Source: Saccharospirillum sp. (GTDB taxonomy: Bacteria > Pseudomonadota > Gammaproteobacteria > Pseudomonadales > Natronospirillaceae). Taken from it: a DNA stretch of 64,000 nucleotides. Where the stretch lies: contig JAGYIL010000001.1 of assembly GCA_018402545.1 (NCBI GenBank), positions 1 to 64,000 of the forward strand. Reading direction: 5' to 3'. A program made the position numbers and the translations under genes. The number at the start of each line of letters is the position of its first letter. Position 1 is the stretch's first letter. The notes under the pieces are model-generated. The model saw only the letters and a program-made list of their open reading frames with translations, ran no database searches and had not been told where the DNA came from. Shown here piece after piece: positions 5,451 through 60,840 of this stretch.

Positions 5451-5557
5451 GGACTGCCGGGTACGCCTACTGGGGGTATGCTGTAAATACTTCCCTGTAA
5501 GCTCGGAGACCGCATCCCTGCGGTCTAACGACCCCCAGTAGACGTACCCGGCAGTCC
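5451..5557 (-). repeat. Structured intergenic element, copy A
   Basis: A 27-bp inverted repeat (5451-5477 and 5531-5557, 26 of 27 paired) closes this element. Inside is the perfect hairpin AGACCGCA-TCCC-TGCGGTCT (5507-5526) and a weaker one around 5484-5501. Read on the minus strand, the loops are CAGGGATG (5513-5520) and ACAGGGAAGT. It lies between the TauE-like gene and the imuA promoter, both on the minus strand. The interior (TGCTGTAAATAC... and ...GCGGTCTAACG) is shared with copy D, so A and D form one subfamily. Confidence 0.85.
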
Positions 5558-5593
5558 TTGGGTCATCACAGGTGGTTGAACCAAGGCGAATTT

Positions 5594-6346
5594 CTAAGCC
5601 ATCAACCCTGAGGCCACCAGGCTCAAGCCCGACCCCATCAGCAAAGCAAACGCCAGACGGCGCATCCAGAGTTCCGGGAGGGGAGGTCCGAAGCGTTTGC
5701 CAATGAGCGTGCCCAGAATGACCAGTGGCAGGCCCAGTACACAGATCAGCAGAACGTTCATGGCGTCTTGCAGAAAGGGTAATGCCAGGGCGATGCGAAC
5801 GACTGAGGTGGCGAAAAAGGTCATCAGCAGGGTCAGCCGAATGCTGAGCAGTGGCAGGGGCTGGCGGTACATCAGAAACGCCAGTGGCGGGCCGTAGGTG
5901 GCGAACAGGCCGCCGAGCAAGCCGGCGATGGCGCCCGCTGTGGCAAAGGCGAAACGACCGTTTACGTCGGCCTGGGGTTTGGGTTTGAGCATCATCAGCA
6001 GGCAACTGATGACCAGGGTAATGCCGAGCAGCAGTTGCAGCAGGCTGAGGCTGCTTTGACTGAAGTGGGTGAGCAGCCATAAGCCCAGGCCGGTTAACGG
6101 GATGGCCGTTGCCAGCATGGCGATGACTGCCGGGCGATGCACATGCTGGGTGTGGCCACGCAGGGCGATGCCGGTGTTGGCCAGACTCAGGGTGCTGGTG
6201 GCGAACGCCAGAAAGGCGAGGTCGGCCAGGCCAAGAACCGAGCTCAGGCCCATAACGATCAGGCCGAAGGCAAAGCCGGTGACGGTTTGAATGTAACTGC
6301 CCAGAAAGAACAGGCCCAGCAGCAGGGCAGCGTTGGTGATGTCCAT
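5594..6346 (-). CDS. TauE/SafE-family sulfite exporter-like permease
   Basis: 250 aa integral membrane protein with about eight hydrophobic segments arranged as two repeated halves, the usual TauE/SafE (TSUP) topology. Typical signatures are the glycine-rich first helix (GLFFLGSYIQTVTGFAFGLI) and the second-half counterpart (AGAIAGLLGGLFATYGPP, about residues 137-154). Family members export sulfite, sulfoacetate or other organosulfur anions; the substrate here cannot be told. It is a monocistronic-looking minus-strand gene with element A just past its stop. Confidence 0.88.
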   Translation of the reverse strand: MDITNAALLLGLFFLGSYIQTVTGFAFGLIVMGLSSVLGLADLAFLAFATSTLSLANTGIALRGHTQHVHRPAVIAMLATAIPLTGLGLWLLTHFSQSSLSLLQLLLGITLVISCLLMMLKPKPQADVNGRFAFATAGAIAGLLGGLFATYGPPLAFLMYRQPLPLLSIRLTLLMTFFATSVVRIALALPFLQDAMNVLLICVLGLPLVILGTLIGKRFGPPLPELWMRRLAFALLMGSGLSLVASGLMA

Positions 6347-6429
6347 GCGTGTAGTTTACGGGGTTCGGGTGGCTGCGGCGAGGCGGGATGGTGCGGTCCG
6401 AACCCCGGGTAAGGGCCGGACCGGTGGCG

Positions 6430-6876
6430 CTACAGTTCGTCGATCAGGGATTTGACGTCGGTGTGCTGGGCAATTACCTGTTCGAGTGCCGCCGGGCTGA
6501 TCAGCTGATACAGGCGGTTGTCTTTTTCGATGGTGCCCTGAATGTAGCCGCCAGCCATGTTGGTGTCGGCGTCTTCCATGGCAAAGTATTGCACCCCCTC
6601 AACCTTGGTAACGGCCATGCCAACCCGGGTTTCCGACAGGTCGAGCACGAGCAGAAAGCTGGGCTCGGTGATTTGGCCGTAGCCCGTCATCTGGTGTACA
6701 TCGATAACCGCCAGGGTTTCGCCGCGCAGGCTGACCAGCCCCATGACACCCAGGGCATCGCTGGGGACCGGATGCAACGGCTGCCACGGAACCACTTCTT
6801 TGATCAGAGTGGCCGGGAATGCCAGCGGCTCGGTATCGAGCTGAACCACAACCCACATTTCGTTCGACATCGACAT
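6430..6876 (-). CDS. CheW-like chemotaxis coupling protein
   Basis: 148 aa, a single CheW domain. The first strand reads WVVVQLDTEPLAFPATLIKEV, and the conserved VSLRGETLAVIDVHQMTG segment (about 48-65) is the usual GLVNLRGxxLPVIDL motif. CheW proteins couple methyl-accepting receptors to the kinase CheA. No cheA, cheB or cheR is adjacent, so this is an orphan coupling protein that may serve the two chemoreceptors elsewhere in the window (14.7 and 34.3 kb); that link is inference. The start ATG at 6876 has a GGAGCC-type ribosome site. Upstream is a 470-bp non-coding gap holding element B. Confidence 0.88.
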   Translation of the reverse strand: MSMSNEMWVVVQLDTEPLAFPATLIKEVVPWQPLHPVPSDALGVMGLVSLRGETLAVIDVHQMTGYGQITEPSFLLVLDLSETRVGMAVTKVEGVQYFAMEDADTNMAGGYIQGTIEKDNRLYQLISPAALEQVIAQHTDVKSLIDEL

Positions 6877-7040
6877 TCGACGGGCTCCTATGCCTTACAG
6901 CGCGGATGCAGTCCGCATTCAATCAGATTAGTCAGGCCCCGGTGGCCTTGCAAGCGGGCCGACGGGGTAAGCATTGTTCAGGTTATCGACCGGCAATGCC
7001 AATAGTTAAGGAGCGCCTGTTTCGACTTTTGGTTTTCTCC

Positions 7041-7250
7041 GGTGCCAAGCGTCCGTATCAGGCACCGGGTGTGGCTATCTGGGGTCGGCGTGGACCCGTC
7101 CATGGGGCCTAGACTGCAGGATATGAATCCCCTCCCTGGGATTCACCCTTCGGGCTCGCTGCGCTCATGCAAAAACGCTCCTGGCGTTTTAGTCCCTGCT
7201 TCAGACTCCCCCAGATAGCCACACCCGGCACCTGACACTCAGTTGGTTGC
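7041..7250 (-). repeat. Structured intergenic element, copy B (long form)
   Basis: Explains most of the 471-bp gap (6877-7347) between the divergent cheW-like and helicase genes. The main arms are 7059-7084 and 7209-7234 (24 of 26 paired, core GTGGCTATCTGGGG). The interior has three small hairpins: CCCGTCCATGGG (minus strand loop CATGGACG, 7097-7104), GAATCCC...GGGATTC (7125-7144) and AAAACGC...GCGTTTT (about 7172-7190). The right flank ends in the TTGGTTGC shared with copies E and G. On the minus strand it could form part of the cheW leader. I see no gene in the rest of the gap. Confidence 0.85.
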
Positions 7251-7347
7251 AAACTACGAGACATGAATGAAATCACAGTCGGTTAAATCGCAGACAAGTC
7301 AGCATGACTTTGCTAGCCTTGTCCGCCGCCTTTGACTCTGACCAAGC

Positions 7348-9615
7348 ATGCGCTTTTCCGACACCGACTTCACAGACGAGCAACAACGCATCATCGCCCA
7401 CCCGGGTGGCCATGCGCGTATTGTGGCGGTGGCCGGGTCGGGCAAGACGGCGACGCTGACGGCTTATGTCAGCCGCCGCATTCGTGAAGGGCTGTCACCG
7501 CGCCGTCTGTTAGTGCTGATGTACAATAAAACGGCACAGCGGGACTTCGCCCGTCGTCTGACTGAGCAGAACCCGGCGGGAACGCGCTTGCCGGAAGTGC
7601 GGACTTTCCATTCGCTCGGTTATCGCATTTATCAGCGCCTGGTTCAGGATGGCGACTTGCCGCCGTTTGACCGGACGCTGTTGTCCGATGCCCAGGTCGA
7701 GCCGCTGGTCTGGCGTATTCTGCGGGAGCTGGCCGATGATGATCAGGCCGAAGACATTCTGACCCGCAAGAAGAAGTGGGTCGAACCGGCGCTTTCCTAT
7801 TTTGAACTGGTGAAAAGCAGTTTGAACCCGCCCGAGGTGGTGTTTGAGCAAAGCCACCTGCCTGCTCAGTGCCGGATCTTCATCGAAGCCTTTGAGCGCT
7901 TTGAGCAGTGGCGTCAGTCGGAGCGTCGTGTCACCTTCAGCGACCTGCTGTACGACCCGGTGCGTTGCCTGAACAGCCGGCCCGAGTTGGCCGAGCGTTT
8001 TGGTGGCCATATGCAGGAAATTCTGGTGGATGAGTACCAGGACATTAACCCCATTCAGCAACGGTTGCTCGAAATCGTGCACGGTGGGCGCGGCCAGGTG
8101 ATGGTGGTGGGTGACCCGGACCAGACCATCTATGAGTTTCGCGGGTCGGAGCCGACCTTGTTGACTGAGGGCTTTACCGAACAGTTCGAGGCGGTGCACG
8201 ACTACGAACTGAGCTGGACCTTTCGTTACGGTCATCACTTGAGCCTGTTAGCTAACCACTTGATCGGTGCCGGACATTTGCACCCGGACAGCCGCACCCT
8301 GTGTTACTCCCATGCCATCACGCCGCCCACCCGGGTGGAGCAGGTGCGCAGTGACGATGGCGCAAGCACGGCGCTGGGGCTGATTCAACAGATTCGACAA
8401 CAGCGTCCGCTGAGCGACGTTGCGGTGTTGAACCGGCTGTGGGCGAACAGTGCCCGGCTTGAGCTGCTGTTGATGGCGGCCGACGTCCCTTACCATCTGG
8501 ATCACCACCAGACGGTGCTGGAGCGGTTCGAATTGCGCCCCTTCTGGGTGCTGTTTGATCTGGCCAGTGGCGATTTCAGCCGTTATGACCCGGACCGGCG
8601 CCGCCAGGCGTGGCAAACACTGCTGACCCAGCCTTATCTAAAGATCCGCAAGGCGATCATCGACGATCTGGTTAAACGGCTGGCTACGGTGGCGGTGGAT
8701 GTCGCCCGGCATTTGCGCAATGCCATTCCCGAGTCGCTGTCGGGCTACCAGGCCGATCAGTTGATGGAGCGGGCGCGACTGTTGCAAAAGGCGGAGGAGG
8801 CGAAGGCCAGTGCCTCCGAGTTGCTCAGCGGCTGGATTCGCGGAACGGAGTACTACGCCGCGCTGAAAGAGTCGGCGTTTTCTGCCCAGCAGGTGGATGA
8901 TCAGGTCGCGACCGTTAAAGCCTTCGCTCAGTTTGTAGCGGCCCAGGACTGGCCCGCTGCTGAGGCCTCGCCGCGTTTGCGTCAGTGGCAGCAACACCAG
9001 ACCGGTCAGAATGCTTCTGGCCAGTCGCAGCGGGGCGTACACATAACCTCCATTCACAAAGCCAAGGGGCGTGAGTGGCCGATCGTGATTTTGCCCGAGG
9101 TCAACGCCCGGTTTTACCCCTACCATCCTGAAGGCGACCTGACCCGGCCGACCTCGGAAGACAGTGAGCGACGCTTGCTCTATGTGGCGATGACGCGGGC
9201 GCGCGAACATCTGGTACTGCTGACGCCGGCCGACCGCAGCGAACACCCGGACAGCCCTTTCGTCAACGAACTGCGATGGCTGGGGTCGACGGACCTGGCG
9301 CACGCCCTGAATGACGGCAGTACCGAGCTGACCCTGAACGATGCGATGGACACGCACATGGTCAGCCGCTATCTGAACGCGGTTGGTGCATCCCTTCGCG
9401 TTCACTGGGAGGCCGCACCGCGACCGATTGATGCAGTTGCCGGTACTGCCGACGATGCAGCCCCGCCCGCTGCCCGGCGCGTGCGGCACCAGCAGTGGGG
9501 CGTCGGCCGGGTGGTGCAGCAAGACCCACAGCGATTGCGCATCCGCTTTGTGCGCAATGGCCAGGAGCGAACCTTCGACCGGGCAACCGTCGAGCCTTTT
9601 CTGGAGTGGTTGTAG
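7348..9615 (+). CDS. UvrD/Rep-family ATP-dependent DNA helicase
   Basis: 755 aa superfamily 1A helicase. Q-motif and motif I (FTDEQQRIIAHPGG, AVAGSGKTATL, residues about 9-36), motif II as VDEYQDINPIQQ (about 228-239), motif III GDPDQTIYEFRGS, motif V/VI HITSIHKAKGREWPIV and RRLLYVAMTRAREHLVLL. The C-terminus (HQQWGVGRVVQQDPQRLRIRFV) is a small beta domain like the PcrA/UvrD Tudor-type tail that binds RNA polymerase. It is longer than Rep (about 670 aa) and close to UvrD (about 720), but too divergent for me to call it uvrD itself. It probably unwinds DNA in repair or conflict resolution. A second, housekeeping UvrD may exist elsewhere. Confidence 0.9.
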   Translation: MRFSDTDFTDEQQRIIAHPGGHARIVAVAGSGKTATLTAYVSRRIREGLSPRRLLVLMYNKTAQRDFARRLTEQNPAGTRLPEVRTFHSLGYRIYQRLVQDGDLPPFDRTLLSDAQVEPLVWRILRELADDDQAEDILTRKKKWVEPALSYFELVKSSLNPPEVVFEQSHLPAQCRIFIEAFERFEQWRQSERRVTFSDLLYDPVRCLNSRPELAERFGGHMQEILVDEYQDINPIQQRLLEIVHGGRGQVMVVGDPDQTIYEFRGSEPTLLTEGFTEQFEAVHDYELSWTFRYGHHLSLLANHLIGAGHLHPDSRTLCYSHAITPPTRVEQVRSDDGASTALGLIQQIRQQRPLSDVAVLNRLWANSARLELLLMAADVPYHLDHHQTVLERFELRPFWVLFDLASGDFSRYDPDRRRQAWQTLLTQPYLKIRKAIIDDLVKRLATVAVDVARHLRNAIPESLSGYQADQLMERARLLQKAEEAKASASELLSGWIRGTEYYAALKESAFSAQQVDDQVATVKAFAQFVAAQDWPAAEASPRLRQWQQHQTGQNASGQSQRGVHITSIHKAKGREWPIVILPEVNARFYPYHPEGDLTRPTSEDSERRLLYVAMTRAREHLVLLTPADRSEHPDSPFVNELRWLGSTDLAHALNDGSTELTLNDAMDTHMVSRYLNAVGASLRVHWEAAPRPIDAVAGTADDAAPPAARRVRHQQWGVGRVVQQDPQRLRIRFVRNGQERTFDRATVEPFLEWL

Positions 9616-9639
9616 GGGATTGAGTGACGGGTGACATTG

Positions 9640-9695
9640 TAGGACGCGAAACATTGAAGGACGAAACACAGTGAAAGACGCAAAACATGAAGTTC
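9640..9695. repeat. Short degenerate tandem repeat
   Basis: Three imperfect units of about 17 bp (GGACGCGAAACATTGAA and variants GGACGAAACACAGTGAAA, GACGCAAAACATGAAG) lie between the helicase stop and the next gene. They are too degenerate to call a known element; they may be iterons for a regulator or a relic. Confidence 0.4.
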
Positions 9696-9757
9696 CTAGT
9701 CCATCCGTAGAGCGGTGGTGTACGTACAACTGAGCAACCAATCAATGGAGCTCTTTT

Positions 9758-10285
9758 GTGTGGAAACTCATCGCAAGCACAGCGCTTGTTGCGCTGCTGA
9801 CGGGGTGCGCTAGTGTGACCGTCGCAACCTATGAAGACGCCGATCTGGTGTTCGACCCGATCGAGTATTTTAACGGCCCCCTCGTTGCTGAAGGGGTGGT
9901 GCGTGGCCGCAACGGCGAGGTCAGCCGTTATTTCAACGCAACCATCGATGCCCGCTGGGATGAAAACGGCGGCGTGCTCGATGAGGTCTTCATCTGGAGC
10001 GATGGCGAACGCCAGACCCGGGTCTGGAATTTCGAGCGCGTTGGTGAGCAGTATTATCGCGGCACGGCAGGGGATGTGGTCAAACCGGCTGAAATGCGTT
10101 TTGCCGGCAATGCGGTAAACATGAAGTACGTGTTGTCCGTGCCGATGGCGAATGGCAATACCATTAACGTCACCATGGACGACTGGTTATATCAGGTAAA
10201 TGATAAGACGCTGATTAACGTAACGCAGATGAGCAAATTCGGCATTCGCGTGGGTGAGGTTGTACTGACCATGCGCAAGCTTTGA
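9758..10285 (+). CDS. DUF3833-family lipoprotein
   Basis: 175 aa with a lipoprotein signal (LVALLTGC, Cys at residue 17), so it is exported and lipidated at the periplasmic face. The body matches the DUF3833 pattern: an early FDPIEYFNGPLVAEGVVRGRNGEVSRYF stretch in two parts and a late VTMDDWLYQVNDKTLINVT segment. The fold is a lipocalin-like beta barrel by family knowledge; the function is unknown. Translation starts at GTG 9758, with GGAG 8 bp before it. A strong terminator follows, so it is likely its own transcription unit. Confidence 0.85.
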   Translation: MWKLIASTALVALLTGCASVTVATYEDADLVFDPIEYFNGPLVAEGVVRGRNGEVSRYFNATIDARWDENGGVLDEVFIWSDGERQTRVWNFERVGEQYYRGTAGDVVKPAEMRFAGNAVNMKYVLSVPMANGNTINVTMDDWLYQVNDKTLINVTQMSKFGIRVGEVVLTMRKL

Positions 10286-10302
10286 GTCCGGACAGCGCGG
10301 TG

Positions 10303-10326
10303 AAAAGGGCCCTCGGGCCCTTTTTT
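10303..10326 (+). terminator. Rho-independent terminator after the DUF3833 gene
   Basis: AAAAGGGCC-CTCG-GGCCCTTTT followed by further T residues: a 9-bp stem with a 4-nt loop and a T run, 17 bp past the stop codon. Confidence 0.9.
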
Positions 10327-10415
10327 GGTTGAACGCCGCCCAGGAAAATACCCCCGACATTTAAGACGCGCCCCGCTATACTGGCGCCACTATTTTTCTA
10401 GCTGGAGTGAGCTTT

Positions 10416-11387
10416 ATGTTCTCAGCCTGGTTGGCTGTTGTCGCCGGACTGGCCTTGCTGGTCTGGAGTGCCGACAAGTTTGTTGAAGGCGCCTCGGTGA
10501 CCGCCAAATACGCGGGTATGTCACCGCTGCTGATCGGTATGGTGATCATCGGTTTTGGTACCTCGGCACCGGAAATGGTGGTCTCCGCCATTGCCTCGCT
10601 GCAGGGTAACCCTGGCCTGGCACTGGGTAACGCTTATGGCTCGAACATTACTAACATAGGCCTGGTTATCGGCCTAGTGGCGGTGATTGCGCCGATTCGG
10701 GTGCAGTCGCGCATACTGAGCAAAGAGCTGCCATTGTTGCTGGCCGTTACCGTGCTTGCGGGTTATCAGCTGCTGGATGGCGAATTAAGCCGGCTGGATG
10801 CCTATATTTTGTTGCTGGTGTTTTTCGGCATCATGGGCTGGTCGATCCTTCAGGGGCGGCAGAAGCCGGCGGACTCGCTCGAAGCCGAATACCTGAAAGA
10901 AATTGACTCCCACCCGATGAGCTTGTCCAGAGCCATTACCTGGCTGGTTATTGGTCTTGTGTTGCTGGTGATCAGTTCGCGTCTGTTGGTCTGGGGTGCC
11001 GTGATCATCGCCCAGAGCTTTGGTGTCAGTGATCTGATCATTGGTTTGACGGTCGTGGCAGTCGGTACCTCGCTACCGGAGCTGGCGTCCTCCCTGGTGG
11101 CGATTAAGAAGAACGAGCATGAACTGGCTCTGGGCAATGTGTTGGGTTCCGGTTTGTTCAACACGCTGGCGGTCGTCGGTATTGCCGCCGGTATTCACCC
11201 GTTGGCGGTTGATCCGGAAGTGCTGTACCGCGACTGGGTAGTGATGGCGGCGCTGACGGTAGTGCTGCTGATCATGGGTATTGGCCTGCGCGGCCGCCAG
11301 GGGCGCATAAACCGGGTAGAAGGCGGCATGTTATTGCTGGTGTATGCAGGCTATACCGGCTATCTGGTTTCGCTGGTGTTAAGTTAA
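10416..11387 (+). CDS. Calcium/sodium antiporter, CaCA family (YrbG-like)
   Basis: 323 aa inner-membrane exchanger with about ten hydrophobic segments. Both signature alpha repeats are intact: GFGTSAPEMVVSAIASLQGN...LGNAYGSN (about residues 45-75) and VGTSLPELASSLVAI...LGNVLGSGLFN (about 210-248). These helices form the ion site that exchanges Ca2+ for Na+ or H+. The ATG at 10416 is chosen over an upstream GTG at 10407 because GGAG (10404-10407) sits at the right distance for it. A likely promoter is CCGACA-17 bp-TATACT ending near 10381. Confidence 0.93.
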   Translation: MFSAWLAVVAGLALLVWSADKFVEGASVTAKYAGMSPLLIGMVIIGFGTSAPEMVVSAIASLQGNPGLALGNAYGSNITNIGLVIGLVAVIAPIRVQSRILSKELPLLLAVTVLAGYQLLDGELSRLDAYILLLVFFGIMGWSILQGRQKPADSLEAEYLKEIDSHPMSLSRAITWLVIGLVLLVISSRLLVWGAVIIAQSFGVSDLIIGLTVVAVGTSLPELASSLVAIKKNEHELALGNVLGSGLFNTLAVVGIAAGIHPLAVDPEVLYRDWVVMAALTVVLLIMGIGLRGRQGRINRVEGGMLLLVYAGYTGYLVSLVLS

Positions 11388-11502
11388 TCACATAACGGAT
11401 GAGAAATCGTGGTGAGTCGTGGTAACGGGAATTACTATGCTCACCGCCCGGGGCGAGGATCGCTCCGGGTCATTAAACTCATTGCCAACAAGGAAGACAA
11501 TA

Positions 11503-12309: not shown

Positions 12310-12456
12310 CCTGGCTGAAAAAAATTTTGGGTGCCTGCATCCATTTGAGCTGATCAAGTCGTCTGAGGGGTAAGTAGGACGTCCAATGGACCCTAACTTC
12401 ACCGTTCAATGCACTTGGACGACGCATTCTTGATCATGACTCAAAGGGAACACACC

Positions 12457-12888
12457 ATGAAATTACCGACACTCAGCACCTTCGCTCTGGCATCTGCACT
12501 GGTATTAACCGGTTGCGCTACTGACTCCTATGCAAGCTCTTATTGCAGCAATAATGAGTCACCGGCAAGCGGCGTAGTTTCGAAAGTGGAAACTGCCATT
12601 GGTGAAGTTTTTGCCACAACGCAGGGGATGACGCTCTACACCTTCACCCGCGACTCAGCTTCGGTATCAAACTGCTACGACGGCTGTGCGGAAAGCTGGC
12701 CACCGTTCACCGCTGCAAAAGATGCTGAAACCTGGGGCGCGTTTACGGTGATTGAACGGACAGATGGCAGTTACCAGTGGGCGTATGAAAACCAGCCGCT
12801 ATACACCTGGGTGGGTGATCGCCAGCGCGGTGACGTCAATGGCCATGAAATCAGTGACGTCTGGTTTGCTGCCCAGACGGGTCAGTAA
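12457..12888 (+). CDS. COG4315-type secreted-repeat lipoprotein
   Basis: 143 aa with a lipobox (LALVLTGC-like, LVLTGCATD). It carries two copies of the secreted repeat of PF03640: GMTLYTFTRDSASVSNCYDGCAESWPP (split around residues 62-88) and YQWAYENQPLYTWVGDR (about 107-123). Two cysteines in the first repeat fit the CxxxCAxxWPP signature. Members are periplasmic or surface proteins of unknown role, often near redox or cytochrome genes; no such neighbour is seen. The ATG at 12457 follows AAGGGA, so an earlier ATG at 12409 is unlikely. Confidence 0.87.
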   Translation: MKLPTLSTFALASALVLTGCATDSYASSYCSNNESPASGVVSKVETAIGEVFATTQGMTLYTFTRDSASVSNCYDGCAESWPPFTAAKDAETWGAFTVIERTDGSYQWAYENQPLYTWVGDRQRGDVNGHEISDVWFAAQTGQ

Positions 12889-12898
12889 TTCAACGCCG

Positions 12899-14650: not shown

Positions 14651-14652
14651 GA

Positions 14653-14679: not shown

Positions 14680-14693
14680 GGTTGAGGTGAGTC

Positions 14694-43894: not shown

Positions 43895-43973
43895 GATCGG
43901 GTGTGCCGGCTAAGACTGGAATAGCAACCATACGACCAAACCGGTTAGAGTCGCAACTGCCAGTCAGTCGTCC

Positions 43974-44085
43974 GTGTCAGCCACCGGGTATGCCTCTCCG
44001 GGGCCGGCGTGAACCCATCCATGGGGCCTAGACCGCAGCATCCTGCTGCGGACTTCCCCGGAGAGGCATACCCGGCACCTGACAC
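43974..44085 (-). repeat. Structured intergenic element, copy C (short form)
   Basis: Arms 43974-44003 and 44056-44085 are 30 bp and pair at 27 of 30 positions (core GCCTCTCCGGGG). The interior is a CCCATCCATGGG hairpin (minus loop CATGGATG, 44016-44023) and CCGCAGCA-TCC-TGCTGCGG (44033-44051). Flanking sequence also shows TAGCAACC left and GGTTGCTA right. It sits between divergent genes (43523 and 44148) and explains most of that gap. Confidence 0.88.
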
Positions 44086-44147
44086 TCACCTGGTTGCTAA
44101 CCCTTACTTTACTAAGTATTAGGTTTGAAATTTAAAGGAGAACGGCG

Positions 44148-44520: not shown

Positions 44521-44800
44521 CTGCTTTAGAAATTCGTAACGATCAACCTGATAGTTATCCGAGGAGTGTTGGGTAGGGTTAATGGGGGCCGTTAGACCGC
44601 ATGGACTAAAACGCCAGGAGCGTTTTAGCACGAGCGGAGCGAGCCCTTAGGGTGAACCCCATGGATGGGGTTCATATCCGGCATCCGAGCCTACATGGAT
44701 GTATTTACGGCGTGCTCCCATTAACCCTACCCAATACTCCGCCTGGCACTGTAGACATGAATGCCACCCGAACAAGTTACCCACAGAATTTCTAAAGCAG
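44521..44800 (+). repeat. Structured intergenic element, copy D (long form, inverted)
   Basis: Main arms 44563-44586 and 44717-44740 pair at 23 of 24 (core GTAGGGTTAATGGG). A further outer perfect 15-bp pair, CTGCTTTAGAAATTC (44521-44535) and its complement (44786-44800), suggests the whole 280-bp unit is palindromic. Interior hairpins on this strand: AAAACGC-CAGGA-GCGTTTT (44608-44626), CCCCATGGATGGGG (loop 44660-44667) and TACA-TGGA-TGTA (loop 44694-44701). The interior runs opposite to copies B, E and G. It fills the 438-bp gap before the moxR operon. Confidence 0.87.
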
Positions 44801-45932: not shown

Positions 45933-45933
45933 T

Positions 45934-51698: not shown

Positions 51699-51760
51699 TT
51701 TGATGGCGCTGGCTGCAACTTTGGCTAGTGTGATTACTATACCCATGCTGAGGATTGCCT

Positions 51761-53368: not shown

Positions 53369-53399
53369 CGTCACGAGTTTCGGCGTTTGGGTTTGTTTT

Positions 53400-53609
53400 G
53401 GTGCCAGGAGTCCGTGTCAGGCACCGGGTAAGGCTATCTGGGGTCGGCGTGAACCCATCCGTGGGGCCTAGACTTCGGGATATGAATCCCCTCCCTGGGA
53501 TTCACCCTTCGGGCTCGCTGCGCTCATGCTAAAACGCTCCTGGCGTTTTAGTCCATGCCTCAGACTTCCCCAGATAGGTATACCCGGCACCTGACACTTA
53601 ATTGGTTGC
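53400..53609 (-). repeat. Structured intergenic element, copy E (long form)
   Basis: Arms 53414-53443 and 53568-53597, 25 of 30 paired (core CTATCTGGGG). A small GGTGCC...GGCACC pair lies at its left. Interior loops on the minus strand: CACGGATG (53456-53463), CAGGGAGG in GAATCCC...GGGATTC (53484-53503) and CAGGA in AAAACGC...GCGTTTT (about 53531-53549). It fills the 288-bp space between convergent stops of the CHASE-GGDEF gene and icmF. Confidence 0.87.
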
Positions 53610-53656
53610 GAACTCCGAAACTTGAGTAGTAAGCCGCCGGGCAGCTCGATCTCTTA

Positions 53657-56600
53657 CTACATATTTCTACGATATTCCCCGCCCACCTGATACAGCGCGT
53701 GGCTAATCTGCCCGAGACTGGCGACTTTCACCGTCTCCATCAGCGTCGCAAACAAGTTTCGACGTGCCCGGGCGTCATCGGCCAGAGTGGTGAGTGCGTC
53801 GGTTACCTGGTCTTTGTGCTGATGCTGGAAGCGGGCGACCTGTTCGATCTGTTGCTGTTTTTCAGTGTCGGTTGAACGCATCAGTTCAATGGGCGCTTCC
53901 GTCTCTTTGTCCTTCTTCGACAAGAAGGTGTTCACGCCAATGATCGGCAGTTCACCGCTGTGCTTTTTGTGTTCATACAGCATCGATTCATCCTGAATCT
54001 TGCTGCGCTGGTACATCGTATCCATGGCGCCCAGTACACCCCCGCGTTCACTCAGTCGTTCGAATTCCTCAAAGACGGCCGCCTCGACCAGGTCGGTCAG
54101 GTACTCCAGGGTAAAGGCACCCTGCATTGGGTTTTCATTCTGGTTCAGGCCGAGTTCTTTATTGATGATCAGCTGAATGGCCACCGCGCGGCGCACGCTG
54201 TCTTCCGTTGGGGTGGTGATGGCCTCGTCGAAGGCGTTGGTGTGCAGGCTGTTGCAGTTGTCAAACAACGCATAGAGCGCTTGCAGGGTGGTGCGAATGT
54301 CGTTGAACTGAATTTCCTGGGCGTGCAGCGAACGGCCCGAGGTTTGAATGTGGTATTTCAGCATTTGCGAGCGGGCGTCGGCGCCGTAGCGGTACTTCAT
54401 GGCCCGTGCCCAGATGCGCCGTGCGACCCGGCCGATCACGGCGTATTCCGGGTCCATGCCGTTGCTGAAAAAGAAACTCAGGTTGGGCGCGAAGGCGTTA
54501 ATGTCCATACCGCGTGCGCGGTAATACTCGACCAGGGTAAAGCCATTGGCCAGCGTGAACGCGAGCTGGGTGATCGGGTTGGCCCCGGCTTCGGCTATGT
54601 GATACCCGCTGACGCTGACGCTGTAGAAATTGCGCACGTCACGTTCGATAAACCAGGCCTGAACATCGCCCATTAAATGCAGGGCGAATTCGGTTGAGAA
54701 GATGCAGGTATTTTGTGCCTGGTCTTCTTTTAAAATGTCGGCCTGTACGGTGCCGCGCACTTGAGTCAGTGTTTTGGCGGCAATGCGCTGGTAGGTGTCG
54801 GCATCGACCAGTTGGTCGCCGGTGACGCCGAGCAAGCCGAGACCCAGGCCGGAATGACCTTCCGGTAACTCGCCCTGATAGCTGACCGGAACATCACCCA
54901 GAATGTCGTTGATGCGTTGTTGTGCGTCTTCCCATTCGCCGTTGTCGCGCAAATGTTTTTCAACTTGCTGATCGATGGCGGTGTTCAGAAACATCGCCAG
55001 AATGATTGGCGCCGGGCCGTTGATGGTCATCGATACCGAGGTTGTTGGTGCGCATAGATCAAACCCTGAATAGAGTTTTTTCATGTCGTCCAGCGTCGCG
55101 ATGGAGACACCGCTGTTGCCGACCTTGCCGTAAATATCCGGGCGTTCGGCCGGGTCTTCGCCGTACAGGGTGACGGAGTCGAAGGCGGTCGACAGTCGTG
55201 CGGCGGGCTGGCCGAGCGACAAATAGTGGAAGCGACGATTGGTGCGTTCCGGTGGGCCTTCGCCGGCGAACATCCGCGTCGGGTCTTCGCCGCTGCGCCG
55301 GTAGGGGTAAACCCCGGCGGTATAGGGGAAGTGGCCGGGCAGGTTTTCCTGGCCGCTGAACCAGACCCGTTCGCCCCAGTCCTGGCTGGTGTTGGCGCTG
55401 ACTTTGGGGATGCGATTGCCGCTGAGGGTGTCGCGGTAGTTGTCGCCGGTAATGGCTTTGCCGCGCACCTGGTATTCGAAGGTATCGCTTTGCACCGAGT
55501 CCATCAGGGCATCCCAGTCGAGCAAGGTGCGCCGGCTTTCGGGTTGAAGTTGCTCCAGTGCCGCGTTGTGCCGTTCAGCCAGTGCTTTTTGCGCAGCGTC
55601 CAGGCCTTCGGGTGCGACTTCATTGAGAGGGGCAAGATCGTCCAGTCCGAGCAAGCGCAAGCTTTCATACAAATGTTGCACGGTGCGCGCGCAGTCAGCC
55701 TGGTTCTGCAGCTGTTCACGCAGGGAGCGACCCTGCTCGGCAATCTCTGCCAGGTAGCGTTGCTGCGCACCGGGGATTAATACATGAGCTTGCGGGTCAC
55801 CCTCGGTCAGTTCAGCCTGCCAGTTGGATTCTGTTGCCTCGCTGAGGCGCCGGCACAGATGATTGAATACGCGGTTTACACCGGGGTCGGAAAAGTGGCT
55901 GGCGATGGTGGCGAAGACCGGCAGGTCAGCGTCTTTGGATTCGAAATCAATGCGGTTGCGGCGCCATTGCTTGCGCACATCGCGCAGCGCATCGGCCGCG
56001 CCCTTGCCATCGAATTTGTTGATCACGATCCAGTCGGCCAGATCGAGCATGTCGATTTTTTCGAGCTGACTGGCGGCGCCGTAATCGGGGGTCATCACAT
56101 AGCCTGGTAGATCAACCAGGTCGACAATGGCACTGTCTGACTGGCCGATACCGGCGGTTTCCACAAACACCAGATCGAACCCCTGATGGCTCAGCTCGGC
56201 AATGGCGTCCTGCAATACTTCGCTGGTCGACAGATGCTGGCGTCGTGTCGCCATGCTGCGAAAATAGACGTTGGGCAGGCGCAGGCTGTTGATGCGAATG
56301 CGGTCACCCAGCAGGGCCCCACCGGTGCGCCGTCGGGTCGGGTCGATCGCCAGTACGGCAAAACGTTTGTCGGGGAATTCAGTGGCGAAACGGAGCACCA
56401 GTTCATCGGTCAGGCTCGATTTGCCCGCGCCGCCAGTACCGGTTAAACCAAGCGTTGGTGCGCCTTTGCTTTTGGCGTTCGGCGTCTTGCGACGCGCTTC
56501 AATATCCGACAGAGCCCATGCCTGAATCAGGTCCGGGTGGGCATCGCTGGGCAGCGATGTAGGCCGGGCATCGCGAGCGGCCCGAATGCGCGCTACAGCA

Positions 56601-57001
56601 TCGTCGATCATGCCGGGCAGACCCAGTTTCATACCGTCGTTAGGGTGGTAAATTCGGGTAACGCCATAGGCTTCGAGTTCAGCGATTTCTTCGGGCGTGA
56701 TAGTGCCACCACCGCCACCAATAACCGCCATGTAGCCTGCACCGCTGGCTTTGAGCCGGTCGATCAGATATCGAAAATACTCCATATGCCCGCCCTGATA
56801 AGAGCTGAGCGCAATGCCATCGGCGTCTTCCTGCAGGGCAGCCTTGATCAAATCGTCTACACTGCGGTTGTGGCCCAGGTGAATCACTTCGCAACCACGA
56901 TCCTGAATCAGCCGACGCATCACATTGATGGCGGCATCGTGGCCATCGAAGAGGCTGGCGGCGGTGATGATGCGCAATGGTGCGGTGTTATCGTGACTCA
57001 T
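53657..57001 (-). CDS. icmF: Fused isobutyryl-CoA mutase IcmF
   Basis: 1114 aa. Three modules in IcmF order: an N-terminal cobalamin-binding domain ([15 protein letters not shown], His21 as cobalt ligand), a MeaB-like GTPase chaperone (Walker [10 protein letters not shown] about 188-196; GIGQSDS), then the acyl-CoA mutase large domain. IcmF interconverts isobutyryl-CoA and n-butyryl-CoA (or isovaleryl/pivalyl-CoA), with the G-protein protecting the radical enzyme. ATG 57001 ([10 protein letters not shown]) is the standard N-terminus. It lies downstream of the dehydrogenase gene, separated by element F. Confidence 0.95.
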
Positions 57002-57040
57002 AAGGCGTTTTCCCAGCAGGTGTCTTTTGTGGCTATCACC

Positions 57041-57220
57041 CAAGTTTCGGAGTTCGGTTCACGACTGTGGTGTTGGCCCGCACCGGATGCCGGGTATACC
57101 TCTGTGGGGTCGGCGTGAACCCATCCATGGGGCCTAGACCGCAGCATCCTTGCTGCGGACTTCCCCACAGAGGTATACCCGGCACCCGTTGCTAGTCTCC
57201 TGAGCGAACTCCGAAACTTG
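57041..57220 (-). repeat. Structured intergenic element, copy F with terminal inverted repeats
   Basis: The outer ends are a perfect 16-bp inverted repeat, CAAGTTTCGGAGTTCG at 57041-57056 and its complement at 57205-57220. Inside, arms 57086-57109 and 57163-57186 pair at 23 of 24 (core ATACCTCTGTGGGG). Interior minus-strand loops: CATGGATG (57122-57129) and CAAGGATG in CCGCAGCA...TGCTGCGG (57145-57152). It lies between the dehydrogenase and icmF genes, so a shared transcript would include it. Confidence 0.9.
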
Positions 57221-57236
57221 AGTGAAAGCGGCAACT

Positions 57237-58112
57237 TCAGTCGTAGTTGTAAAACCCGCGACCACTCTTGCGGCCTGTGTAACCAGCATCGACCATCTGA
57301 ACCAGTAGCGGGCAGGGCCGGTATTTCGGGTCTTTAAAACCGTCGTGCAAGACGTTCATGATGAACAGGCAGGTATCGAGCCCGATCATGTCGGCCAGTT
57401 TCAGCGGGCCCATGGGGTGGTTCATGCCCAGTGTCATTACGGAATCGATGGCCTCGGCGTCGGCAACGCCCTCGTACAGTGTGAAGATGGCTTCGTTGAT
57501 CATCGGCATCAAAATGCGGTTCGAAACAAAGCCTGGGGCGTCGCGCACTTCGATGGGTGTTTTGCCCAGTTGTTCGCTGAGCGATTTGATGGCGTTGAAG
57601 GTTGCATCCGAGGTTTGCAGTGCCCGAATCAGTTCCACCAGTTGCATCAGCGGCACCGGGTTCATGAAGTGCATGCCCATGAAGCGGTCGGGTCGGGAGG
57701 TCGCGGCCGCCATGCGGGTGAGGGAGATGGCGCTGGTGTTGGAGGCGAACAGGGTTTCGGCAGGGCAGAGGGCATCGAGCTTGCGAAACAGGTCGATCTT
57801 GACGGTTTCGTTCTCGGTAATGGCTTCTACCACCAGGTCACAGCCGCCAAACACCTCAATGTCGGTATGGGTGTGCAATCGGCCCAGACTAGCTGAATGC
57901 TGGTCGCCGGTCAGTTTTCCCTTCTCAACGAACTTTCCCAGGCTGCGGTCAACGGCTTTTAAGGCGGTTTCAAGCTGGGCTTGCTGGTTATCGACGAGAT
58001 GAACGGTATAGCCACTCTGGGCAAACACCTGGGCGATGCCATGGCCCATGGTACCGGCCCCCAGAACACCGATAGTTTGAAGTGAGTCGGTACTGAACGC
58101 AGTCGTCGTCAT
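57237..58112 (-). CDS. 3-hydroxyacyl-CoA (3-hydroxybutyryl-CoA) dehydrogenase
   Basis: 291 aa. N-terminal NAD-binding Rossmann fold GVLGAGTMGHGIAQVFAQSG (about 14-33), NTSAISLT, HFMNPVPLMQLVEL (catalytic His region, about 148-161) and the C-terminal helical domain NHPMGPLKLADMIGLD. It oxidises 3-hydroxybutyryl-CoA or a similar substrate. With icmF downstream on the same strand it fits branched-chain or butyrate carbon catabolism. The start ATG at 58112 has AGGAT before it. A LiuR-like operator sits in its promoter. Confidence 0.93.
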   Translation of the reverse strand: MTTTAFSTDSLQTIGVLGAGTMGHGIAQVFAQSGYTVHLVDNQQAQLETALKAVDRSLGKFVEKGKLTGDQHSASLGRLHTHTDIEVFGGCDLVVEAITENETVKIDLFRKLDALCPAETLFASNTSAISLTRMAAATSRPDRFMGMHFMNPVPLMQLVELIRALQTSDATFNAIKSLSEQLGKTPIEVRDAPGFVSNRILMPMINEAIFTLYEGVADAEAIDSVMTLGMNHPMGPLKLADMIGLDTCLFIMNVLHDGFKDPKYRPCPLLVQMVDAGYTGRKSGRGFYNYD

Positions 58113-58152
58113 AGAGGATCCTGTGGATGAGCTGTAATTTTTATTGATCCCG

Positions 58153-58182
58153 AGGCTAGTTTTCGTTTACGTTAACGTCAAC
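58153..58182 (-). promoter_or_regulatory. Promoter with LiuR-type palindromic operator
   Basis: GTTTACGTTAACGTCAAC (58165-58182) is a near-perfect palindrome of the TTTACGTnnACGTAAA type used by the MerR-family regulator LiuR. On the minus strand it supplies -35 TTGACG, 17 bp, then TAGCCT as -10, ending about 40 bp before the dehydrogenase start. The operator overlapping the spacer fits MerR-type control. Confidence 0.75.
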
Positions 58183-58259
58183 TTGTGGCGAACCATGCGT
58201 GATGAGGCGTGCGTAAACTCTGGCAAACAGTCTGGGCTAGGCGTTGTGGCATGGGCCCG

Positions 58260-58453
58260 TGCTGGATACCGGGTATGCTTCTCCGGGGTCGGCGTGAACC
58301 CGACCATGGGGCCTAGGCTTCGGGATATGAATCCCATCCATGGGATTCACCCTTCGGGCTCGCAGGGCTCGTGCTAAAACGCTCCTGGCGTTTTAGTCCA
58401 TGCCTCAGACTTCCCCGGATAAGCACACCCGGTACCCGCACTTAATTGGTTGC
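58260..58453 (-). repeat. Structured intergenic element, copy G (long form)
   Basis: Arms 58267-58288 and 58413-58434, 20 of 22 paired (core TATGCTTCTCCGGGG against CCCCGGATAAGCACA). The right flank is CTTAATTGGTTGC as in copy E. Interior: GAATCCCATCCATGGGATTC hairpin (minus loop CATGGATG, 58335-58342) and AAAACGC...GCGTTTT. The other usual loop is altered here (CGACCATG at 58301-58308, so GGA is lost). It stands between the operator and the MerR gene in a 431-bp divergent gap. Confidence 0.83.
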
Positions 58454-58543
58454 CAATCAAAACTAGATGATCAGACCCCATTTTTTTGTGGTATCCGTAT
58501 TGTAGTGGTGACCTGTGATTTATTACCTGAAGTCCCTGATCTC

Positions 58544-58942
58544 ATGAATAAAGCGACACCCGAATTGCAGACCTTCAGCATCCGCGACCTGGCCGGCGAA
58601 TTTGACGTGACCACTCGCACCATCCGTTTTTACGAAGACAGAGGCCTGCTAACCCCCGAGCGCGATGGCCAGCGCCGCATCTACCACAAGCGCGACCGCG
58701 CCCGGCTGGTGCTGATATTGCGAGGCAAACGTCTGGGCTTCAGTCTGGATGAGATTCAGCAACTGGTCACCGCCTATGAAACCCCCGACGATGAAATTCC
58801 CCAGCTGGAACAGTATCTGAAAACCCTGACCGAACATCGGGAGACGCTGCTGCAACAGAAGGAAGATCTGGAGAAAACCTTGCAGGAACTGGAACAGGCG
58901 GAGCGGGATTGTCGGGCGGCGCTGGAGAGAAAGCAGGGCTGA
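58544..58942 (+). CDS. MerR-family regulator, LiuR-like
   Basis: 132 aa. Winged HTH at the N-terminus (FSIRDLAGEFDVTTRTIRFY, EDRGLLTPERDGQRRIY) followed by a long coiled coil (LEQYLKTLTEHRETLLQQ, KEDLEKTLQELEQAERD). No metal-binding cysteines. This pattern, and the palindromic operator by the 3-hydroxyacyl-CoA dehydrogenase gene it faces, point to LiuR, which controls leucine/isovalerate and related acyl-CoA degradation genes. ATG 58544 is the start that begins close to the HTH. Confidence 0.87.
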   Translation: MNKATPELQTFSIRDLAGEFDVTTRTIRFYEDRGLLTPERDGQRRIYHKRDRARLVLILRGKRLGFSLDEIQQLVTAYETPDDEIPQLEQYLKTLTEHRETLLQQKEDLEKTLQELEQAERDCRAALERKQG

Positions 58943-59043
58943 ACAGTTACTTTGAGTATGGTTGCAGGCGGTAAAGTAACTACCGCGCCGGGTGAGATTG
59001 CACTACCATCAGCGATAGTTATGAAAGAGTATTGGACAGTGCC

Positions 59044-59268
59044 ATGAAGACAAATGAACTGATAGACGAGGCCGCGATGTTGCCGGTCGAAGAGCGAGCC
59101 AGGTTGATTGATTCACTACTTTTGAGCTTCAATCCACCTGAATCAGACATAGAGCAGCTTTGGGCAAAAGAGGCAAAGCGCAGGCTGGCAGAAATGCGTA
59201 CCGGGCAATCAGCAGTGGTTTCGGGTGAGGCGGTATTTGAGCGTGTATGGACTCGGCTGAATAAATGA
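59044..59268 (+). CDS. Antitoxin, addiction-module component family
   Basis: 74 aa, small acidic/basic helical protein. Its sequence (IDEAAMLPVEERARLIDSLL, ...ESDIEQLWAKEAKRRLAEM) matches the addiction module component family (TIGR02574) that forms an antitoxin with a RelE/ParE toxin. The stop overlaps the toxin start (ATGA), the usual TA arrangement. A promoter TTGCAC-16 bp-TATGAA ends about 59026. The antitoxin would bind and repress both toxin activity and its own promoter. Confidence 0.85.
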   Translation: MKTNELIDEAAMLPVEERARLIDSLLLSFNPPESDIEQLWAKEAKRRLAEMRTGQSAVVSGEAVFERVWTRLNK

Positions 59269-59555
59269 CCTTTTTGTTCCACCCAGATGCCGAGCTTGAA
59301 TTTAATCAGTCGATTGACTACTACGAAAACATTCGGGCCGGCTTGGGCCATGATTTTGCCGTGGAAGCTTACTTGACCATTCAGAGAATAATTGAATATC
59401 CCGAAGCTTGGCCTGTCTTCGATGGTGATGTTCGTCGGTCATTATTGCGCAGATTCCCTTACGGTGTTCTGTACACATTAGAAAATGGCTCCGTTTTTAT
59501 TGTTGCGGTTATGAATCTGCATCGTGCTCCTGACTACTGGCAAGATAGAAATTAA
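59265..59555 (+). CDS. RelE/ParE-family toxin
   Basis: 96 aa. Fits the ParE/RelE fold: FHPDAELEFNQSIDYYENIR (helix pair), LTIQRIIEYPEAWPVFDGDV, and the C-terminal strand set RRFPYGVLYTLENGSVFIVAV. The arginine-rich RRFPYG stretch is typical of members acting on ribosome-bound mRNA or gyrase; which one cannot be told. It is coupled to the antitoxin by ATGA, and its stop abuts the stop of the convergent MerR gene. Confidence 0.88.
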   Translation: MTFLFHPDAELEFNQSIDYYENIRAGLGHDFAVEAYLTIQRIIEYPEAWPVFDGDVRRSLLRRFPYGVLYTLENGSVFIVAVMNLHRAPDYWQDRN

Positions 59556-59996
59556 CTAAAGACTCTCTTTTCCTGCCTCGTGGTCATGCAAGCACAAAGC
59601 ATGGTTTTCCAGCACTTCAATTACCCGGCAATGCTCCACCGTATTTCCTTCACAAACCCCCACCATCCGGGATAATTCCTCCTCCAGTGCCTGCAACCGG
59701 GCAATTCTCGAGCGTACGGCGGTCAGTTGCTCTTCGGCAATGGCGTTGGCCTCATGGCAGGGCTCGTTGGCGTGGCGCGACAGGCGCAGCAGGGATTTGA
59801 TGGCCTCGAGCGAGAAGCCAAGTTCCCGTGCGTGGCGAATGAAGCGCAGCTGGTTCAGGTGGGCATCGCTGTAACGCCGTTGGTTGCCTTCGGTGCGATG
59901 CGGCGGCGCGACCAGGCCTATACTTTCGTAATACCGCAGCGTCTGAACGGCGCAGTTCAGGCGTTTGGCCAACTGGCCTATGCTGTAATGTTGCAT
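59556..59996 (-). CDS. MerR-family metal-responsive regulator (ZntR/CadR-like)
   Basis: 146 aa. HTH YSIGQLAKRLNCAVQTLRYY then ESIGLVAPPHRTEGNQRRYS, a dimer helix, and Cys/His residues suited to metal binding: EPCHEANAIAEEQL (about 79-92), the loop VCEGNTVEHC (about 117-126) and HALCLHDHEAG at the tail. It regulates the divergent cation transporter via the operator at 60022-60052. ATG 59996 begins right at the HTH, as in other MerR proteins. Confidence 0.9.
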   Translation of the reverse strand: MQHYSIGQLAKRLNCAVQTLRYYESIGLVAPPHRTEGNQRRYSDAHLNQLRFIRHARELGFSLEAIKSLLRLSRHANEPCHEANAIAEEQLTAVRSRIARLQALEEELSRMVGVCEGNTVEHCRVIEVLENHALCLHDHEAGKESL

Positions 59997-60021
59997 GCTT
60001 GGACACTCCCTTAAAAAGTGT

Positions 60022-60052
60022 TTGAACCTACAATCATTGTAGCTAATAGACT
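60022..60052 (+). promoter_or_regulatory. MerR-type promoter/operator for the cation transporter
   Basis: -35 TTGAAC (60022-60027) and -10 TAGACT (60047-60052) are separated by 19 bp, the long spacer that MerR proteins untwist. Within it is the perfect palindrome CTACAATCATTGTAG (60028-60042). It lies between the divergent MerR and transporter genes. Confidence 0.85.
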
Positions 60053-60085
60053 GGGCTCTGTGTTGAACAATTGCGAGGGATAACC

Positions 60086-60706
60086 ATGGGTCAGCAGTGT
60101 TGTGGAACCAATAACTTTGATGGCACAACCCGGGGCTACCGGCAAGCCTTGGTGGCCGTTATTGTCATTAACGCGGCCATGTTCGTAGTCGAGATTCTCG
60201 GTGGTGCCTGGGCGGGTTCGCAGGCACTGAAAGCCGATGCGCTCGATTTTCTCGGCGATGCACTGACCTATGGCCTGAGCCTCTGGGTCATTGGCCGGTC
60301 ACTGCGAACCCGGGCCAGTGCGGCGATGTTGAAAGGCATTAGCCTGGCGCTGATGGGCGTTTGGGTTTTGGGCTCAACGATCTGGCAAGTGTGGATTCTG
60401 GGCGTTCCCAGCGCTGGCATTATGGGCGCTATCGGTGTGATGGCCCTGGTGGCGAATATGGCCAGCGTTCTGATTCTGTTGCGTTACCGGGATGGCGATG
60501 CCAACGTCCGGTCCGTCTGGTTGTGCAGCCGCAATGATGCGATTGGTAACGTGGCGGTAATCGGCGCCGCTGTATTGGTGGCGTTTACCGCCAGCCCCTG
60601 GCCGGATCTGGTGGTTGCAGCGCTGATGGCCGGGCTCTTTTTGAAATCGAGCGTCAGTATTATTCGTCAGTCTATGGGAGAGTTGCGCCAGGTGGCAATT
60701 CAGTAG
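60086..60706 (+). CDS. Cation diffusion facilitator-like efflux protein
   Basis: 206 aa with six hydrophobic segments (two near the N-terminus, a long pair in the middle and two at the end). ADALDFLGDALTYG (about 51-64) and SRNDAIGNVAVIG (about 151-163) are CDF-type metal sites in helices 2 and 5, with N, D and D residues in place of some His. The protein is shorter than classical CDFs, lacking the cytoplasmic domain. It is controlled by the MerR regulator next door, so it probably exports a divalent metal ion. ATG 60086 follows GAGGGA. Confidence 0.87.
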   Translation: MGQQCCGTNNFDGTTRGYRQALVAVIVINAAMFVVEILGGAWAGSQALKADALDFLGDALTYGLSLWVIGRSLRTRASAAMLKGISLALMGVWVLGSTIWQVWILGVPSAGIMGAIGVMALVANMASVLILLRYRDGDANVRSVWLCSRNDAIGNVAVIGAAVLVAFTASPWPDLVVAALMAGLFLKSSVSIIRQSMGELRQVAIQ

Positions 60707-60740
60707 CGACTGGCTTAACTAGGGCTGCGCAACGAGGGTC

Positions 60741-60840
60741 GGGTGCTGGGTGTACCTATCCGGGGAAGTCCGCAACATGGATGTTGCGGTCTAGGCCCCA
60801 TGGATGGGTTTACGCCGACCCCGGATAGGTACACCCAGTT
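60741..60840 (+). repeat. Structured intergenic element, copy H (short form, inverted)
   Basis: Arms 60746-60765 and 60819-60838 pair perfectly over 20 bp (core TGTACCTATCCGGGG). Interior plus-strand hairpins: CCGCAACA-TGGA-TGTTGCGG (loop motif 60776-60783) and CCCCA-TGGA-TGGG (60799-60806). It lies between the convergent transporter and BNR-repeat genes and occupies most of that gap. Confidence 0.87.

Follow-up and report, generated by a model that had tools for sequence, protein, structure and literature searches.

Dispersed palindromic repeats with paired GGA hexaloops in Saccharospirillum, and their likeness to TwoAYGGAY RNA and the YPAL element of Yersinia

What kind of element places the recognition motif of CsrA/RsmA in the loops of hairpins scattered between genes? 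The question is raised by 64 000 nucleotides of Saccharospirillum sp. DNA (contig JAGYIL010000001.1, positions 1 to 64 000; the window), in which eight elements, copies A to H, carry sequences that read CA-N-GGA-YG on one strand. An earlier note, made from the sequence, had placed these in hairpin loops and likened them to CsrA sites. The copies belong to a dispersed repeat with a conserved, covarying structure, a defined folded strand and a constrained GGA. We lean by a small margin to the view that they form a mobile-type palindromic repeat, the GGA strand of which is of TwoAYGGAY type and gives an RNA bound by CsrA/RsmA. CsrA/RsmA is the likeliest ligand, and its binding is predicted from the sequence with about an even chance.

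The repeat is abundant. At least 176 distinct copies are present in the genome of 4 250 497 bases, counted from a search with a covariance model (R1) and from neighbours in the stretches fetched; this is a lower bound because the genome search covers the best 150 candidates, and window copies B, D and G stand outside the 176, R1 undercounting long forms and a third subfamily. There are at least 150 R1 matches in the genome, every scored one at E < 1e-7, and BLAST with copy F found at least 41 distinct places on both strands (best 40 of 238 candidates scored). R1 was built from 37 copies, the three members of the third subfamily (L031, L033 and L043) being omitted from 40; their stems are quite different from those of the remaining copies. 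All but two of the 176 copies are longer than 80 nucleotides, and only two of these 174 lie within genes predicted by a codon-usage script. Outside the core, ~23 nucleotides upstream and ~38 nucleotides downstream, is a degenerate inverted repeat, AAGTTTCGGAGTT, with at least 10 of its 13 bases present at both ends in 48 of the 174; the reversed motif gave 6 and 0 single-end matches. Outer inverted repeats at both ends thus define a unit of ~180 bp, and the long forms reach ~250 bp.

The fold of the family is a three-way junction closed by P1, a long stem that varies in sequence, and containing two hairpins, P2 and P3, with ANGGAN hexaloops. In an alignment of 37 copies from the one genome 96.4% of cells are paired, and 26 of 34 base pairs have changed on both sides, compared with 15.3 in shuffled sequences. 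Among 107 distinct copies from across the class 94.8% of cells are paired and all 33 pairs have changed on both sides, for a covariation score of 0.817, where shuffles gave 0.185 and slid controls no more than 0.120. The outer arms pair better within than between copies (mean –17.6 versus –15.0 kcal/mol), and likewise the distal part of P1 (–14.4 versus –8.8 kcal/mol). Outside the genus P1 is an unrelated sequence and the core is kept, as seen in 33 loci from 13 related genomes (two congeneric and 11 of other genera). Using nothing but the 26-base P3 core to pick loci gave 80 of them, with 84 core matches; 82 of these matches fell in an R1 match, five of the 82 being truncated by the end of the locus.

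Within this changing framework the GGA is almost invariant. In eight-base loops of the genome it is intact in 162 of 166 P2 and 160 of 162 P3 hairpins, the 10 and 14 of 176 hairpins, respectively, whose loops differ in length being excluded. The preceding base N is T, G, A or C in 99, 40, 26 and 1 copies for P2, and in 134, 11, 3 and 14 for P3, where any of the four letters is seen after the GGA. The idea that N varies and GGA is retained is upheld in both own-genome and class-wide alignments, GGA being kept beyond the expectation from the covarying stems. In a test on other genera that was blind to GGA, 70 of 84 P3 cores proved to have a P2 hairpin upstream, and 68 of these hairpins carry GGA in the loop, two lacking it; the other 14 cores have no stem reaching the threshold, some of them lying at locus ends. 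P3 was itself picked by a pattern containing GGA, and hence provides no test of its own GGA. In these genera a stem pair can be of as many as six standard types in P1 and as many as five in P2, with GGA constant. Structures solved by nuclear magnetic resonance show RsmE bound at an ANGGAN hexaloop, as described in passages of PMC7652899, and the N-variable GGA loops of the copies correspond to it.

Which strand folds? On the GGA strand of 174 own-genome copies there are 88 G-U mismatches to 16 A-C (binomial p 3e-13), and 70 G-A to 23 C-U. The class-wide set of 107 copies gives 95 G-U, 28 A-C, 97 G-A and 7 C-U, and a set of 45 copies gives 43, 13, 44 and 7 in the same order. These asymmetries identify the GGA strand as the folded molecule, with RNA and single-stranded DNA equally compatible. 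The window copies have very stable folds on both strands, the GGA strand being the more stable in seven of eight; the exception is E (–94.7 versus –95.0 kcal/mol).

The fold can be followed in the congeneric genome G001. For 14 orthologous pairs in the same orientation, 382 base pairs are unchanged and 65 have both partners altered with pairing preserved; a further six have changed to or from G-U, and there are six single breaks, two double breaks and one gap. The set draws on the 12 of 20 G001 regions that have a counterpart among the segments fetched from our genome, with one added pair from the window; at least two further sites (L209 and L220) have the element inverted between the two species and were excluded. 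In P2 of these pairs N differs in eight and GGA in none. The compensated pattern could stem from selection, from conversion between copies or from palindrome correction, any one being sufficient, and the excess of G-U points to selection on the folded strand. Elements have also been gained or lost between species. Of the window copies, F and G are matched by R1 at the corresponding sites of G001, G being a short form there, and not at those of two other congeneric genomes, G003 and G004. For E and H it is G001 that gave no R1 match; in each case R1 can miss long forms.

In the window itself all 11 listed examples of CA-N-GGA-YG were recovered by a motif scan, and their placement in loops was sustained in part. 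When each copy is folded alone to its minimum energy, eight of the 11 motifs keep GGA free in a hairpin loop, and three, those of B and E and the second of D, have it paired; the consensus structure, with covariation across many copies, sets the P3 hairpin loop at the same position. Over the whole window CANGGAYG is no more frequent than in shuffles (24 matches, 24.3 expected). Half of the 24 lie inside the eight elements, which together make up ~1.5 kb (2.3%) of the window; simple arithmetic, taking no account of the relatedness of the copies, would place ~0.6 there. The window copies fall into two types: B, E and G are long and C, F and H short forms of the first, and A is the short and D the long form of the second. 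The eight are as follows.

Copy A, 5451–5566, minus strand: short form of the second type, with P2 loop CAGGGATG at 5513–5520 and P3 loop AGGGAA; from an R1 match of 80.4 bits at 5459–5551 (minus), the fold and the motif scan.
Copy B, 7019–7266, minus strand: long form with an extra hairpin module and the P3-type motif CATGGACG at 7097–7104 (minus); from direct repetition of E and G, a weak R1 match of 29.8 bits at 7067–7150, the motif and the fold.
Copy C, 43938–44101, minus strand: short form, with loops CATGGATG at 44016–44023 (minus) and, in the other inner hairpin, CAGGATG, which lacks the N; from an R1 match of 105 bits at 43986–44075 (minus) and folds.
Copy D, 44565–44750, plus strand: long form of the second type, with CATGGATG at 44660–44667 and 44694–44701 and a CAGGA hairpin; from sequence, fold and motif, with the RU-2/YPAL core at 44687–44712 (26/26) and without an R1 match.
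Copy E, 53378–53626, minus strand: long form, with motif CACGGATG at 53456–53463 (minus) and an outer inverted repeat that is clear at the right end; from an R1 match of 66.1 bits at 53426–53587 (minus) and repeats.
Copy F, 57041–57219, minus strand: short form, with loops CATGGATG at 57122–57129 and CAAGGATG at 57145–57152 (minus), and intact outer inverted repeats AAGTTTCGGAGTTCG and CGAACTCCGAAACTT; from an R1 match of 111.8 bits at 57092–57182 (minus).
Copy G, 58223–58458, minus strand: long form, with loop CATGGATG at 58335–58342 (minus) and a P3-type hairpin CATGGTCG in which GGA is lost; from direct repetition of B and E and the sequence, without an R1 match.
Copy H, 60730–60855, plus strand: short form, with loops CATGGATG at 60776–60783 and 60799–60806; from an R1 match of 110 bits at 60746–60836 (plus) and an Rfam RF01731 match of 38.1 bits.

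Copies B and E have additional hairpins with AGGGAG and CAGGA loops that fall outside CANGGAYG. The long-form module lies within P2 (approximately 7123–7194, 44600–44690, 53480–53552 and 58325–58398) and consists of a CTAAAACGC-CNGGA-GCGTTTTAG hairpin and another hairpin; the latter mostly has an ANGGAN loop, the base preceding GGA being A, T or G.

Is this a known element? The earlier note recognised no named family of this design. That view has to be given up, as the core is common to Rfam TwoAYGGAY (RF01731), YPAL/RU-2 of Yersinia, and Ysr224 (RF02770), which seem to be names for one superfamily. Among the open-licence papers that our searches listed we found none joining the three, and none linking YPAL or Ysr224 with CsrA. 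Passages on YPAL/RU-2 mention no role of CsrA, and PMC2229807 does not name the protein; PMC9029176 names both the Yersinia element and CsrA, yet those of its passages that name CsrA concern other matters.

Copy H is a full-length match to TwoAYGGAY (E 0.0022, below the cut-off of 43 bits). The same two hairpins are present, with consensus loops CAUGGAUG and CCAUGGAUGG, and like TwoAYGGAY the elements place adjacent hairpins with AYGGAY-type loops within a closing stem. RF01731 gives 34 matches in the genome, two of them over the cut-off, and in 14 control genomes a single match, under it. TwoAYGGAY belongs to clan CL00106, which we take to be the clan of CsrA-binding RNAs. There are differences, in that 32 of the 34 genome matches fall below 43 bits, and our elements, which lie between genes in high copy number, have a GC-rich outer stem and include long forms that carry extra GGA hairpins. 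The passages of PMC4333381 on TwoAYGGAY describe tandem G-A pairs in a stem and predict that the RNA binds CsrA; two P2 pairs of our elements are non-standard in 10 and 11 of 37 copies, mostly G-A or A-G, and Watson–Crick in the others. We note that the top TwoAYGGAY match of the genome is L031 of the third subfamily, at 49.6 bits, the other two members scoring 42.9 and 31.8.

RU-2, in the excerpt of PMC2759123 that gives its sequence, folds as the same junction, carries CAAGGATG in its P2 hairpin, and has a 26-base P3 core identical to that of copy D. YPAL/RU-2 is described in its available passages as ~168 bp long, intergenic, dispersed and mobile, close to our unit of ~180 bp, and the filled and empty sites for E, F, G and H across G001, G003 and G004 are a further likeness. 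It duplicates its target sites on insertion, over 3–26 bp, and is co-expressed with upstream genes, possibly affecting the stability of their RNA (passages of PMC2229807). At the site of copy F no clear duplication was found, the flanks being too diverged to compare. P1 and the flanks appear unrelated by eye, and in most copies of our genome the base of P3 is built of other pairs (TAGGC...GCCG). A locus of Yersinia proxima (L235) shares 85.6% identity with RU-2 across 167 bases, and on its opposite strand scores 94 bits for Ysr224. The Ysr224 consensus, when reverse complemented, contains both GGA hairpins and the P3 core; it differs in being modelled on the opposite strand. Transcripts from several copies of Ysr224 are reported in PMC12112432. 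In the window RF02770 has no match at its cut-off of 70 bits, scoring only 16.9 and 19.6 bits between 53300 and 60950. With CsrB and RsmZ the elements share GGA hairpin loops and a proposed titration of CsrA; they differ in that each of their many genomic copies has two to about four sites, where CsrB and RsmZ are one RNA of many sites. RsmU of Xanthomonas was considered as a member and set apart by its description, its authors reporting no Rfam homologue (PMC7694677, as excerpted).

The genome encodes one canonical CsrA, near-identical to homologues of solved structure. No CsrB (RF00018) or RsmZ (RF00166) scored over its cut-off in the genome (best 13.3 and 17.3 bits); CsrC and RsmY were not searched for. 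Element matches occur in 26 of 57 genomes and, with a class model (R2) at E 1e-5, stricter filters and the best 15 candidates scored per genome, in 51 of 274 genomes of the class, our own included in both counts. Five genomes of the same genus have 7, 17 and, in three cases, at least 76 copies. The P3 core was found in two viral contigs as against at least 118 genome stretches, and copy F had no match to plasmids at E 1e-5; carriage by phages or plasmids was rejected on this count.

How might such an element act? RNA of the GGA strand would be bound by CsrA/RsmA, a single dimer bridging P2 and P3. The two GGA sequences are 23 nucleotides apart in copies F and H, and such a spacing suits one CsrA dimer. 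ANGGAN hexaloops in hairpins and paired sites, both features of CsrA-binding RNAs, are found in the elements. The copies may then constitute a distributed set of CsrA sites, acting as a sponge if abundant and by local recruitment within a messenger RNA; with lower confidence, the benefit would fall to the host instead of the repeat. Binding by CsrA has already been proposed for the Rfam relative TwoAYGGAY, and is plausible here. More tentatively, TwoAYGGAY, Ysr224 and YPAL/RU-2 may be one gammaproteobacterial superfamily of mobile repeats with a site for a CsrA dimer, in which either a selfish repeat has become a sink for CsrA, or the repeat exploits CsrA; the sink would apply to genomes with hundreds of copies, and the gain of the repeat would be its own stability and spread.

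A number of observations count against binding by CsrA. The earlier note had found the GGA strand to be the transcribed one in three of three copies between co-directional genes. Genome-wide this clue disappears: of 102 such copies 51 are sense and 51 antisense, with 46 between convergent and 19 between divergent genes (seven of 174, at contig edges or inside genes, being left out), and the 59 classed copies from other genera divide into 13 sense, 14 antisense, 23 convergent and nine divergent (50 of 109, 31 at edges and 19 far from genes, being omitted). Sense copies have G-U and A-C in a ratio of 35:3, antisense copies in one of 21:4. With no bias of orientation and an excess of G-U in both orientations, the choice of strand is not set by read-through from the gene upstream. 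Rfam annotates Ysr224, an expressed relative, on the other strand. Copy G lacks one GGA, three of the 11 window motifs have GGA paired in single-sequence folds, and at two of the 14 orthologous pairs the P3 GGA is lost in our own copy, once with an inserted module. Relatedness of the sequences inflates the covariation counts that are based on shuffling. P2 stems have 7–8 bp, where most ligands from systematic evolution of ligands by exponential enrichment had no more than four contiguous pairs (passages of PMC7652899), and P3 (TTYACGGCG) is conserved beyond the needs of CsrA, hinting at another or an additional ligand. Of 60 element-bearing genomes 56 yielded a csrA, and so did 18 of 20 that are element-negative, so that the presence of the gene fails to separate the two groups and is uninformative as a test. 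The four element-bearing genomes in which it was not found, G063, G124, G155 and G250, are 75, 88, 67 and 98% complete, the last being in 270 contigs. Taken overall, the reading of the earlier note survives in the conserved RNA-like structure and the two GGA hexaloops of the short form, and fails in its strand argument and in namelessness.

The principal alternative, possible but in our view unlikely, is that the folded GGA strand, as single-stranded DNA or RNA, serves the spread of the repeat itself, and that the resemblance to CsrA sites is coincidental. A recombinase, a transposase or a reverse-transcription machinery would read the structure first and the loops second. IntI reads attC, TnpA-REP reads repetitive extragenic palindromic (REP) sequences, and G-T and tandem G-A pairs stabilise DNA hairpins too. 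A strand asymmetry irrespective of gene direction agrees with this, as do the absence of F and G from G003 and G004 and of E and H from G001, the patchy distribution over the class and the mobility of YPAL. So does the arrangement of neighbours less than 400 nucleotides apart, which in our genome are head-to-head in 21 of 21 pairs (the 5′ ends of the GGA strands facing), and in other genera in 12 of 21, with four tail-to-tail and five in tandem. Yet no autonomous partner was found. The sole gene of the genome of Y1 type, or REP-associated tyrosine transposase (RAYT) type, at C1:1871362, is flanked by a different repeat and was rejected as a partner. No clear target duplication was seen at F, between flanks that have diverged too far to compare, and after insertion decay would be expected, where 65 compensated changes stand against six single breaks unless conversion or palindrome correction has been at work.

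It is rather improbable that the repeat is of the kind of REP sequences and bacterial interspersed mosaic elements (BIMEs), read through on either strand to protect the 3′ ends of messenger RNA or attenuate operons, with the loops secondary. The elements do share with these an intergenic palindromic character, head-to-head pairs, very stable folds on both strands and an excess of convergent over divergent settings (46 versus 19, and 23 versus 9 in other genera), and the co-expression of YPAL with upstream genes and its possible effect on RNA stability, in the passages of PMC2229807, are in keeping. Such a role leaves the conservation of the GGA loops and the strand asymmetry unexplained; the elements are moreover several-fold longer than REPs of 20–40 bp, form a three-way junction and have no flanking RAYT. 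A function for the opposite strand, as a small RNA of the Ysr224 type with UCC loops that resemble an anti-Shine–Dalgarno sequence, is very unlikely. Although Ysr224 is modelled on the UCC strand and reported as expressed in the passages on it, the asymmetries of both G-U over A-C and G-A over C-U favour the GGA strand in three sets of copies, as does its greater stability in seven of the eight window copies. Retention of GGA through recent common ancestry alone has next to no probability, for while own-genome copies are related and their P1 arms alike within a genome, other genera combine unrelated P1, varied stem pairs and a drifting N with a constant GGA, and the genome-wide covariance model check shows conservation beyond common ancestry, with widely covarying stems.

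The slightly favoured reading, a mobile-type repeat with a CsrA-binding GGA strand, links the published prediction for TwoAYGGAY to a repeat family of Yersinia and to a multi-copy Rfam 'sRNA' (small RNA), the three having in common a covarying core that occurs in many gammaproteobacterial genera. Should CsrA bind, the amount of it that stays free could be governed by the hundreds of copies spread over the genome, and new transcripts would be able to acquire CsrA sites through a mobile repeat. Otherwise the strict conservation of loop and strand demands a different ligand.

Some smaller observations may be added. An intrinsic terminator was considered and rejected: the flanks of the GGA strand are T-rich on the 5′ side and A-rich on the 3′ side, which is the identical pattern on the opposite strand, and there is no T-run after the stem; no scan for promoters or terminators was made. 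Nor was a replication-strand bias seen, contig C1 having no long run of a single orientation (counts per 200 kb, by eye). G035, an element-rich genome of the same order, has nine csrA-like matches. In L223 (~1020–2480) the Y1/RAYT-like gene is surrounded by a different palindromic repeat (GTAGGAAGCCAGTCCTCTGGG...), present in tandem copies, and this looks like a REP/BIME system of its own. Examples of head-to-head pairs are C1:102064–102389 and C5:32201–32469, and 17 of the 21 lie between co-directional genes. An uncultured Saccharophagus contig (L247, 3114–3741) has four tandem copies on the same strand, ~180 nucleotides apart. Lastly, nine loci (L154, L156, L159–L161, L163, L045, L047 and L050) carry small extra hairpin modules in the loops or on the P3 side; these are CGGTCCGACGTCTCG-like in either orientation, and GGGCGGCATTCCGCCC also occurs.

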